NCBI GenBank assembly: GCA_003697015.1
Contig: RFGL01000437.1
Location: forward strand, 1-32,988
Reading direction: 5' to 3'
DNA: 32,988 bases
Origin: Acidobacteriota bacterium
GTDB lineage: Bacteria > Acidobacteriota > Thermoanaerobaculia > Multivoradales > J023
Shown here: positions 6,421 through 10,835 of the stretch, piece by piece
How positions within the stretch are numbered: position 1 is the first letter of the stretch
Layout: each line of letters begins with the position of its first letter
The notes under the pieces: generated by a model
Told to the model about the DNA's origin: nothing
The model's database searches: none
What the model saw: the letters and a program-made list of their open reading frames with translations, nothing else
Program-made: the position numbers and the translations under genes

Positions 6421-8832
6421 TCATTCGGCGGGAGACGTTCCGATCGTCAGCTCGCGTTGGATCGGCGGCAGGCAACGCTGATCGTCGCAGGCCTGGTAGG
6501 TGAGGAGCAGCCGGGCGCTCTCCGCCGGCCGCATCTCGCCGGCGATCTCCACCGTGCCGTCCCAGACCGCCACCGGCCGTTCGGCAAAGGCCAGCTCGAG
6601 TCGCTTGGCGGGGGGGTAGCGGAGCGCTCGCAGCTCGCCCGCCGTCGCCTCGACGGTGGTGGGGATCAGGAAGTCGTCCGACGCCGGGTTGGCGTTGACG
6701 TGCCAGCCCGGCGCGACGCTCAGCCGTACCTTCAGCGGCCGCCAGCCGCCGTCGCCGGGATCGCCGAGCTGCGCCGTGGCGGTGACCAGGCCGGCGGCTT
6801 CGGCCTCGGGGCTGCCCGGGGCGGGGTGGGGCAACGCCGCCCGGCGTTGCGCCGCCGCCGCCGGACCGTGGTAGCGCGCCACGGCGAGGGCCAGGGTCTG
6901 GTAGGCGGCGGGAGCCTGCTCGACCTGGGGGGCGAAGGCCTTGAGAGCGGCTTCGGCCTGATCCCGCCAGCGCGCTTCGCCGGTGCGCTCGGCCAGGGCC
7001 AGGAGGTTCAAGGTCGCCACCGCGTTGGCCGACGGCACGGCGCCGTCGTGGAGCGGGCGCAGTTGGAAGAGGACGTCCGGGCGGGCGGCGGCGGTGACGA
7101 AGCCGCCGTCCGGGTGGCGCAGGCGCGCGATCTGCTCCTCGGTCAGGCTCACCGCCCGCTCCAGCCACGCCTTGTCGCCGGTCGCCCGGTGGAGGGCGAG
7201 GAGGCCGCGGACCAGGAAGGCGTAATCGTCGAGGTAGGCGTCGATCTTGGCCTTGCCGCCGCGCCAAGCGTGCTGCAACGGTCGGCCTTGAGGCCGCAGG
7301 TTGGCGAGCACGAAGCGCGCGGCCCGGGCCGCGTCGTCGACCATCGAACGGTCCTCCAGCAGGCGGCCGGCAGCGGCCATGCCGGCGATCGCCATGCCGT
7401 TCCAATCCGCCAGCACCTTGTCGTCGGTCAGCGGCCGCGGGCGCTGGTCGCGACGGGCGAGGAGGCGCCGGCGCAGGGGCTCGAGGCGCTCGACCAGCGC
7501 CGCCTCGTCGAGGCCCTGCTGCGCCGCCACCCGGGCCAGGGGCTGGGGCAGATGGAGGACGTACTCGTGCTGCTCGAAGGTCGGTTCTCCGTCGAAGCCG
7601 TAGATCGGCGCCAGGAAGGCGAAGTCGCGTTCCCCCAGGACCGCGCGCAGCTCCATTTCGGTCCACACGTAGAAGGCGCCCTCGCGGGCGTTGGTCTCGG
7701 CGTCGATGGCGCTCAAGAAGGCGCCTTCCGGGGAGCTCATCTCGCGGCGCAGGAAGGCCGCGGTCCGCCGCACCACCCGCGCGGCCTGGGGATCGTCCGC
7801 CAGGGCGTACCAGCGGGCGTAGACCTCGAGCAGGTGGCCGTTGTCGTAGAGCATCTTCTCGAAGTGGGGCACCAGCCAGCGCCGGTCGGTGGAGTAGCGG
7901 TGGAAGCCCCCTCCCAGCTGGTCGAAGATGCCGCCGCGGGCCATGCGATCGAGGGTCGTGGCCAGCATGGTGCGGGCCCCCTCGTCGCCGTCTTCGGCCA
8001 ACGCCAGCAGCAAGAGGAGATTGGACGGGGTGGGGAATTTCGGCGCCGTGCCGAAGCCGCCCCAGGTGGCGTCGAAACGCCGTTCGAGGTCGTCGCGGGC
8101 GGCCTTGACCACCGCGGCGGGCGGCGGCGCGGCGGCCGGCCGGTCGCGTTCTTCGAGCACCTGGCGCAGGGCGTCGGTCAGGGCGTCGGCCTGCTTGTCG
8201 ACGTCGGCGCGGCGCTCGACCCAGGCGTCGTGCAGGGCCCGGAGCAGGGTCTTGAATCCCGGCCGGCCGTCCCGATCCTCGGGCGGGAAGTAGGTGCCGG
8301 CGAAGAAGGGTTTGAGCTGCGGGGTGAGGAAGACCGAGTTGGGCCAGCCGCCGTGGCGGGTCAGCAGCTGGGTGGCGGTCATGTAGATCTCGTCGAGGTC
8401 GGGACGCTCCTCGCGGTCGACCTTGATCGGCACGAAGTAGCGGTTGATCAGCGCCGCCACCTCGGGGTTGGAGAAGGACTCGCGCTCCATCACGTGGCAC
8501 CAGTAGCAGGTCGAGTAGCCGACCGAGAGGAAGATCGGCTTGTCCTCGGCCCGGGCCTTGGCCAGGGCTTCCTCACCCCAGGGATACCAGTCGACCGGGT
8601 TGTACTGGTGAAGCAGCAGGTAGGGGCTCGATTCCCCCGCCAGGCGGTTGGGCCTGGCACGGTGAGGCGCCGGCTCGGTGGTGCCCGCCTCCGCCGCCGG
8701 CGGCTCCTGCGGCGAGCCCGCCTCGCCGCCGGCCTGCGCCGCCCCCAGATGGCGGCCGGCGGTCCACGACAGGGCGGCGAGGATCGCCAGGGAGGCGAGA
8801 GCGAGGACGATCGTGCGACGCGGCATGGGCAT
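6421..8832 (-). CDS. exported YyaL/DUF255 thioredoxin-glucanase-like protein fused to a DsbD-alpha domain
   Basis: An 803-residue protein of the YyaL/SSP411 (DUF255) family. Residues 5-35 are a signal peptide or membrane anchor. The thioredoxin-like domain (about 60-220) begins [14 protein letters not shown] and has the redox motif C109-Y-W-C112. The middle part (about 240-660) is the six-hairpin glycosidase-like domain with [19 protein letters not shown] and [19 protein letters not shown]. The last 123 residues (681-803) resemble the N-terminal periplasmic DsbD-alpha domain: [18 protein letters not shown], then YQACDDQRC with C782 and C787, then LPP. Most YyaL proteins are cytosolic and lack both the signal peptide and the DsbD-alpha part, so this is an unusual periplasmic redox fusion. 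It leads the run with the hybrid kinase and FG-GAP genes. An alternative ATG lies two codons downstream (8826). Confidence 0.9.
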
Positions 8833-8906: not shown

Positions 8907-9512
8907 ATGCGCGACGTCAACGCCCCCAGGCTGCGCCGGGTGGCCGTCTTCTGCGGCTCCAGCCCGGGCCGGGACGGCGCCTACCGCGCCGCCGCGGAGG
9001 CGCTCGGCAAGACCCTCGCCGAGCGCCGGCTGGGGCTGGTCTACGGCGGCGGCGACGTCGGCCTCATGGGCATCCTCGCCGACGCCGTGATGGCCGCCGG
9101 CGGCGAGGTGATCGGCGTCATTCCCCAGGCGCTCAAAGCGCGCGAGCTGGCCCATCTCGGCCTCACCCGGCTGGAGGTGGTCGACAGCATGCACAGCCGC
9201 AAGGAGCGCATGTACCAGCTGGCCGACGCCCTCATCGCCCTGCCCGGCGGCATCGGCACCTTCGAGGAGCTGCTCGAGAGCCTGACCTGGATCCAGCTGG
9301 GCCTCCACGCCAAGCCCTGCGGCGTGCTCAACGTCGGCGGCTACTACGACCCCCTCCTCGCCCAGCTCGAACGCGCCGTCGCCCACGGCTTCCTGCGCCC
9401 CGAGCACCGCGGCCTGCTGATCGCCGAACGCGACCCGGTCGTCCTCCTCGAGCGCTTCGCCGACTACCGCCCGCCGCAGATCCGCAAGTGGATCGACGAA
9501 GGGGAGACCTGA
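8907..9512 (+). CDS. LOG-family (TIGR00730) nucleoside 5'-monophosphate phosphoribohydrolase-like protein
   Basis: A 201-residue cytosolic Rossmann-fold protein of the LOG/lysine-decarboxylase-like family, which releases the base from (cytokinin-type) nucleoside monophosphates. It has the N-terminal strand [10 protein letters not shown] (13-21), [12 protein letters not shown] (44-55), the arginine-lysine pair in SRKERM (R98, K99) and the active-site signature PGGIGTFEE (113-121). Its length is typical. It lies divergent from the YyaL fusion gene across a 74-base gap that holds a TTGACA promoter, and it converges on the selenoprotein gene with a 9-base gap. The physiological substrate in non-plant-associated bacteria is uncertain; nucleotide salvage or housecleaning is the family-level inference. 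Confidence 0.92.
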
Positions 9513-9521
9513 ACCGCGCCC

Positions 9522-9779
9522 TCAGGCCCCCTCGGCGGCGGTGCGGACGGCGGCCAGGACGTCGTCCTCGCTCGGCCAGGGACGGCCGGTGAGCTTGGCG
9601 ATCAAGCCGCCCCGGCGGGAGATCACGGTACGGCCGTCGACGCGGATCTCGAACTGACCGCGGCGGCCCTTCTCCAGCTCGACGGACCGGCCGAGGGCAT
9701 CGCCGATGAGGGCAGCGAACCTCGCTGCCTTGGTCGCGGTGGTGGCTCAGGTCTGGCAGTGGACGATGCGGATGTCCAT
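9522..9779 (-). CDS. SelW/Rdx-type (SelT/SelW/SelH family) selenoprotein, UGA at 9747-9749 read as Sec
   Basis: An 85-residue protein when the UGA at codon 11 is read as selenocysteine. It starts MDIRIVHCQT, then Sec11, giving C8-x-x-U11, the redox motif of SelW-type thioredoxin-like proteins. The frame after the UGA continues without a stop for 74 codons with family features: a helix rich in Ala, FEIRVDGRTVISR (strand and turn), GGLIAK, and GRPWPSEDDVLAAV at the end. The ATG (9777-9779) has a GGAGG Shine-Dalgarno (9787-9791) with 7-base spacing, so translation is meant to begin before the UGA. A SECIS-like hairpin sits just downstream. The function is probably thiol redox chemistry on an unknown partner. 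With UGA as stop, only a 10-residue peptide results, so the gene is lost in ordinary annotation. A Cys-to-UGA pseudogene is the alternative, but the intact frame and the hairpin argue against it. Confidence 0.88.
9711..9729 (-). promoter_or_regulatory. bacterial SECIS-like hairpin after the Sec UGA
   Basis: On the minus strand, 17 bases after the UGA (9749-9747), GGCAGCG pairs perfectly with CGCTGCC around the 5-base loop AGGTT. This 7-bp stem and GGU-containing apical loop match the form of SelB-binding bSECIS elements, and the loop G lies about 26 bases from the UGA, within the range used by bacterial elements. The hairpin is inside the coding frame (residues about 18-23), as required in bacteria. 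Confidence 0.85.
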
Positions 9780-9861
9780 CGGGCGTCCTCCGGGGGTGGA
9801 TGAGCGTGATCGGCTGAGACGGCGCTGCCGAGGCGTTCCGCCGTCCGCGCAATGCGGGAGA

Positions 9862-9891
9862 AGACTACAGCGCGCGGCACCCTCCTGCCAA
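9862..9891 (-). promoter_or_regulatory. candidate promoter of the selenoprotein gene
   Basis: Read on the minus strand, TTGGCA (9891-9886) and TAGTCT (9867-9862) are separated by 18 bases, close to the sigma-70 consensus. The predicted start would leave an untranslated leader of about 75 bases before the ATG at 9779. Confidence 0.45.
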
Positions 9892-9918
9892 GGCCGGCTA
9901 CGGCCGCAGGCGTCGTCC

Positions 9919-9927
9919 TGTTATCGT
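9919..9927 (+). promoter_or_regulatory. extended -10 element before the dehalogenase-like gene
   Basis: TG-T-TATCGT at 9919-9927 looks like an extended -10 promoter, 23 bases upstream of the ATG at 9951. No good -35 is visible at the right distance. The selenoprotein promoter lies just to the left on the other strand, so the two genes are divergent. Confidence 0.4.
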
Positions 9928-9950
9928 GGCGCGGCAGAAAGGAGCGCGTC

Positions 9951-10835
9951 ATGGAGCGACCGTTCGAGGTGCCGGCGGAGCTTTATCCCTTCCGCTCGCG
10001 CTGGCAGGTGGTCGGCGGCCTGCCGGTGCATTACGTCGACGAGGGGGAGGGGCCGCCGGTGCTCTTTCTGCACGGCAATCCGACCTGGAGTTTTCTCTAC
10101 CGCGACGTGATCCGCGAGCTGCGGGGCAGCTGCCGCTCGATCGCCCTCGACTACCCGGGGATGGGGATGAGCGGCAAGCCGCGCCTTCACGGCCGGCCGG
10201 ACTACGGGTTTACGCCGGAGGAGCACAGCCGGGTGGTGGAGGGCTTCGTCGAGGCCCTCGACCTGCACGATCTGACCTTGATGGTGCAGGACTGGGGCGG
10301 GCCGATCGGCCTGGCGGTGGCGGCGCGCCAGCGGCGGCGCGTCGCCCGCCTGGTGATCGCCAACACCTGGGGATGGCCGGCGGAGGAGCTCGACATGAAG
10401 ATCTTCTCCTTTCTCCTCGGCCGATTCCCCGGCCCCCTGTTGATCCGCTACCGCAACTTCTTCGTCGAGACCGTCCTACCCCTCGGCGTCGAGAAAAAGG
10501 AGCGCCTCACCCCGGCGGTGATGGCCGCCTACCGCGCCCCCTACGCCGCGCCGGTCGATCGCCGGCCGACGGCGGTCTTCCCCCGCGCCATCGTCGCTTC
10601 ACGGGCCTTTCTCGCCGACGTCGAGGCCGGCCTCGAGTCCCTGCGTCAGCTGCCGGCGGCGATCATCTGGGCGAAGAAGGACAAGGCTTTCCGCAAGCGC
10701 GAGCTCGAGCGCTGGCGCGCCCTCTTCCCCGCCGCCCCCCTGACCCTGATTCCCGATGCCGGCCATTACCTGCAGGAGGACGCCCCGCAGGCGATCGCCG
10801 CCGCCGTCCGGTCGTTCTTGGGCCTCCCCGGCTGA
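9951..10835 (+). CDS. haloalkane dehalogenase-like alpha/beta hydrolase
   Basis: A 294-residue alpha/beta-hydrolase with haloalkane-dehalogenase features. The oxyanion/halide motif is HGNPTWSF (41-48, N43), the nucleophile is an aspartate rather than serine in VQDWGGPIGL (D114 with W115 next to it), the likely acid is D244 in WAKKDKAF, and the base is H272 in DAGHYLQED. Asp nucleophile followed by Trp is the signature of dehalogenases cleaving carbon-halogen bonds in small haloalkanes. Related epoxide hydrolases also use Asp but normally carry different cap tyrosines. The ATG at 9951 is supported by AAAGGAG (9938-9944) with 6-base spacing; the frame is open upstream but without family similarity. 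Whether it truly dehalogenates is not shown by sequence alone. Confidence 0.88.
   Translation: MERPFEVPAELYPFRSRWQVVGGLPVHYVDEGEGPPVLFLHGNPTWSFLYRDVIRELRGSCRSIALDYPGMGMSGKPRLHGRPDYGFTPEEHSRVVEGFVEALDLHDLTLMVQDWGGPIGLAVAARQRRRVARLVIANTWGWPAEELDMKIFSFLLGRFPGPLLIRYRNFFVETVLPLGVEKKERLTPAVMAAYRAPYAAPVDRRPTAVFPRAIVASRAFLADVEAGLESLRQLPAAIIWAKKDKAFRKRELERWRALFPAAPLTLIPDAGHYLQEDAPQAIAAAVRSFLGLPG

Follow-up and report, generated by a model that had tools for sequence, protein, structure and literature searches.

The window, a stretch of 32,988 nucleotides of Acidobacteriota DNA, carries on its minus strand a short reading frame with one internal TGA, and the question raised by this locus is whether the codon terminates translation or specifies selenocysteine (Sec). 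The frame opens with an ATG at 9779 and extends to 9525, its single in-frame TGA being codon 11 (9747-9749); 74 sense codons separate this TGA from the stop codon TGA at 9522-9524, which completes a gene of 9522-9779 with a predicted product of 85 residues (MDIRIVHCQTUATTATKAARFAALIGDALGRSVELEKGRRGQFEIRVDGRTVISRRGGLIAKLTGRPWPSEDDVLAAVRTAAEGA). When re-read from the sequence, the coordinates and the 85-codon minus-strand frame given in a preliminary description were exact. The start signal of that description, a GGAGG ribosome-binding site, lies at 9787-9791 on the same strand with 7 nt spacing to the ATG, and its Cys-x-x-UGA position corresponds to Cys8 and UGA11, which translation and homologue alignment place in a putative Cys-Gln-Thr-Sec (CQTU) redox motif (9747-9758, minus strand).

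Family-like sequence had also been noted over the 74 codons after the UGA. With the UGA entered as Cys, the protein matches the Pfam family Rdx (PF10262) above its gathering cut-off (25.5 bits against 22.6, E 1.6e-5), residues 3-78 aligning with positions 2-72 of the 74 in the profile; this score is modest and counts against an explanation of the gene as a SelW/Rdx selenoprotein. A profile of 11 homologues matches solved Rdx proteins, MIEN1 and bacterial SelW-related proteins. An AlphaFold model made from four sequences (pLDDT 85, pTM 0.76) predicts the thioredoxin-like fold of SelW: SelW/Rdx proteins fill its first 23 PDB matches, with no other fold among those 23, and TM-scores with bacterial SelW/Rdx structures are about 0.68-0.76 (query-normalised). 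In the model, CxxU sits at the end of the first strand (strand 3-8, helix 12-29; Cys8, UGA11). The NCBIfam model of the SelT/SelW/SelH subfamily, TIGR02174, scores 21.2 bits, below its curated cut-off of 34.2, and does not file the protein as a member; NF041051, the model of epsilonproteobacterial SelW, scores 32 bits against a cut-off of 88. Because both NCBIfam SelW models match below cut-off, which likewise counts against that explanation, automatic annotation would probably skip this gene.

According to the preliminary description, close relatives with randomly placed stops and eroded downstream frames would refute its reading; the opposite was found. When the protein was searched against 197 related genomes, 46 of the 48 listed matches contained exactly one TGA, at the redox position of the family (column 11), and the remaining two begin past that column. 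Homologues that are 61-66% identical in protein sequence share the TGA at the same column, which is occupied by TGA in independent genomes from several orders and classes. The Rdx profile matches 147 of the 197 genomes, and among the roughly 150 Rdx matches listed, nearly all have the UGA; three lack a TGA, of which two begin past the motif and one is full-length (CTQC). This last gene (C75:35424-35645, plus strand, in genome G166) is the sole full-length Cys-type Rdx found among the related genomes, and G166 keeps SelA and SelB. After the UGA, dN is 0.22-0.36 and dS 0.60-1.45 between the window gene and six members of its clade, dN being lower in every comparison; because of this, the protein after the UGA can be said to be maintained by purifying selection. 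Although one base divides TGA from TGC or TGT and Rdx also occurs with Cys, the gene is hardly a pseudogene or the product of a sequencing error that turned a Cys codon into TGA, given the same-column TGA across orders and classes, the selection on the downstream frame, and a SECIS-type hairpin preserved through compensatory changes (below). The same observations bear on the idea that the frame is fortuitous, an accident of GC-rich DNA in which an overlapping frame such as 9328-9852 (minus strand) or 9706-10110 (plus strand) is the real gene. Long spurious frames are common across the window, but the UGA-containing frame matches the family, is conserved among homologues and is under purifying selection, and the chance of a fortuitous frame appears negligible. 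Searches of viral contigs and of plasmids gave no matches; the profile scan of contigs used five close homologues, the 11-sequence alignment being too diverse.

Behind the UGA, positions 9711-9729 of the minus strand fold as a hairpin of the bSECIS type, with an 8-bp stem, a GGU loop (9719-9721), a spacing of 25 nt from UGA to loop, and an energy of -14.2 kcal/mol. The published bSECIS model calls for a loop of 3-9 nt with G within its first two bases, a stem of 4-16 bp, a distance of 16-37 nt from the UGA and an energy of -7.5 kcal/mol or lower (PMC13188914), and the window hairpin falls within all of these constraints. No equally good fold arose when the 26-nt stretch was put through 200 dinucleotide shuffles, and no known RNA family of Rfam was found across the window. 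The hairpin overlies an Ala-Ala-x-x-Ala-Ala motif in such a way that three of its stem pairs link third codon positions to each other. Two of these pairs are complementary in all 54 distinct homologues: pair 6-18 (shuffled mean 29, maximum 41), which occurs as C-G, G-C, G-U, A-U, U-G and U-A, and pair 9-15 (shuffled mean 30, maximum 44), which occurs as C-G or G-C. The basal pair, 3-21, is kept in 30 of the 54, not much above chance (shuffled mean 26), and all 54 homologues begin the loop with G. The 54 homologues are far from independent in this test, because the fewest orientation swaps that a poorly resolved tree requires are only five for pair 6-18 and two for pair 9-15; yet each swap on one side was matched on the other. 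Folding energy of the whole 57-nt window stretch was no better than that of synonymous-codon controls (z 0.09), a point against the selenoprotein explanation, and the mean z against such controls was -0.9 for 33 related, non-independent sequences; folding energy is a weak test for single genes, and the case for the hairpin therefore rests on the pairing test. The covariation between third positions shows cleanly how synonymous changes can preserve an RNA signal within a protein motif.

The preliminary description supposed that the genome encodes the Sec machinery, and all four components that it named were found in the window genome (5.34 Mb in 500 contigs, 96% complete): tRNA-Sec with anticodon UCA (73.9 bits), SelA (392 bits), SelB (343 bits) and SelD (371 bits). 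The selenophosphate synthetase (SelD, C412:10608-11531, minus strand) appears to be a selenoprotein itself, because its gene has an in-frame TGA in the motif KTCGUAAK. Since the inserted residue is not visible from sequence alone, the UGA might be imagined to be decoded as Trp or Cys through codon reassignment, or by leaky readthrough. Against such decoding, the window gene and SelD both terminate at TGA, a dedicated tRNA-Sec(UCA) with SelA, SelB and SelD is present, and the UGA occupies the CxxU position and is followed by a bSECIS hairpin; insertion of a residue other than Sec is accordingly given almost no weight. Twelve related genomes with Rdx lack a strong SelA match, which counts against the selenoprotein explanation; SelB is above its cut-off in nine of them and not in three fragmented drafts, a pattern that mostly fits assembly gaps. 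In one genome of the same phylum (G191, 130 contigs, 100% complete), two UGA-containing Rdx matches and a SelB above cut-off are accompanied by no SelA match at E 0.001, which could reflect an assembly gap or a diverged Sec synthase.

The reading of the UGA as selenocysteine, proposed in the preliminary description, gains support from the machinery, the conserved UGA at the redox position, the maintained frame and the covarying hairpin; judged from sequence, the stop-like UGA almost certainly encodes Sec. The frame, the family, the conservation of the UGA, the covariation of the hairpin and the presence of the machinery were computed directly. By analogy with established bacterial Sec biology, translation would start at the ATG at 9779, SelB with Sec-tRNA-Sec, bound to the hairpin at 9711-9729, would insert Sec at 9747-9749 instead of allowing termination, and reading would continue to 9522. 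We have very little doubt that the gene encodes a SelW/Rdx selenoprotein of thioredoxin-like fold, its UGA decoded as Sec with the help of SelB and the hairpin, in which Cys8 and Sec11 would work as a thiol/selenol redox centre. Redox activity is most likely, to judge from the family, and glutathione or thioredoxin is perhaps the partner; the function of SelW-like proteins has been called unclear, with an interaction with glutathione noted (PMC1088965). The genomic context names no partner: the gene lies between a LOG-type protein (8907-9512) and an alpha/beta hydrolase (9852-10835), and the neighbours are not conserved among relatives, where they include CreD, a GDSL lipase, a PRA isomerase, a GFO/IDH oxidoreductase and a methyltransferase. 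Two genes off, another thiol-redox protein of 803 residues (6421-8832, minus strand) combines a thioredoxin domain resembling that of DsbH (DUF255, motif CYWC) with a DsbD_N domain at its C terminus.

Seven members of the window clade were found, all with the UGA: the window gene, L062 (genome G001), L030 (G082), L031 (G098), L063 (G002, Acidobacteriota bacterium OFTM328, of the same family as the window genome), L064 and L065. The tree, built without L031, groups six of them at 98% SH-aLRT, and the clade is marked by a CxTU motif and a SRxGGLxAKLxxRPWP segment. L065 (391-558) is on a contig of a Pirellulaceae MAG (CAMYKF010000079.1) in the Planctomycetota, and its similarity ends after about 47 residues; horizontal transfer, a chimeric contig or wrong binning may explain it. 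The window genome has at least three Rdx paralogues, all with UGA; the other two, at C208:26964-27194 (plus strand) and C75:21866-22072 (minus strand), each have one UGA in CxxU (CVSU and CVVU, respectively) and a hairpin like that of the window gene. The clade could possibly be a SelW-like subfamily that differs in function and uses a redox partner of its own, a tentative suggestion that we consider rather doubtful; it would sit in a phylum whose Rdx proteins are almost always Sec forms and where one genome has three different Sec paralogues.

The window gene belongs to a kind already known, as a new SelW/Rdx member that is divergent and probably unannotated, and opens no new kind of biology. 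It adds a well-supported selenoprotein to the under-studied phylum Acidobacteriota, in which Rdx proteins are almost never found as the Cys form, which fits the suggestion made in 2006 that the SelW-like family originally had Sec (PMC1794560).

The solved Rdx structures 2p0g, 2oka, 3dex, 2obk, 2fa8 and 2ojl, which we take to carry Cys and not Sec, share the fold and profile matches with the window protein at about 21-25% identity. Epsilonproteobacterial SelW genes (NF041051) are likewise selenoprotein genes with a bSECIS that annotation has overlooked (PMC4607533), but they belong to a different phylum, and their model scores the window protein far below its cut-off. SelW-like CxxU selenoproteins, mostly with Sec and rarely with Cys, have been described since 2005-2006: they were the most abundant family in Sargasso Sea data (PMC1088965), were reported to have Cys homologues seldom or never in organisms that contain Sec (PMC1794560), and are listed as PF10262 with CxxU in an inventory of 2026 (PMC13188914). 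The window protein has in common with these bacterial proteins the Rdx fold, CxxU, a bSECIS directly after the UGA, and nearly constant use of Sec, rarely Cys, in Sec-using organisms, whereas in its clade a longer SRxGGLxAKLxxRPWP segment takes the place of the FSK...GRFP of the canonical short SelW-like form, and CxTU that of CVVU; identity to the other aligned Rdx groups is 30-39%.
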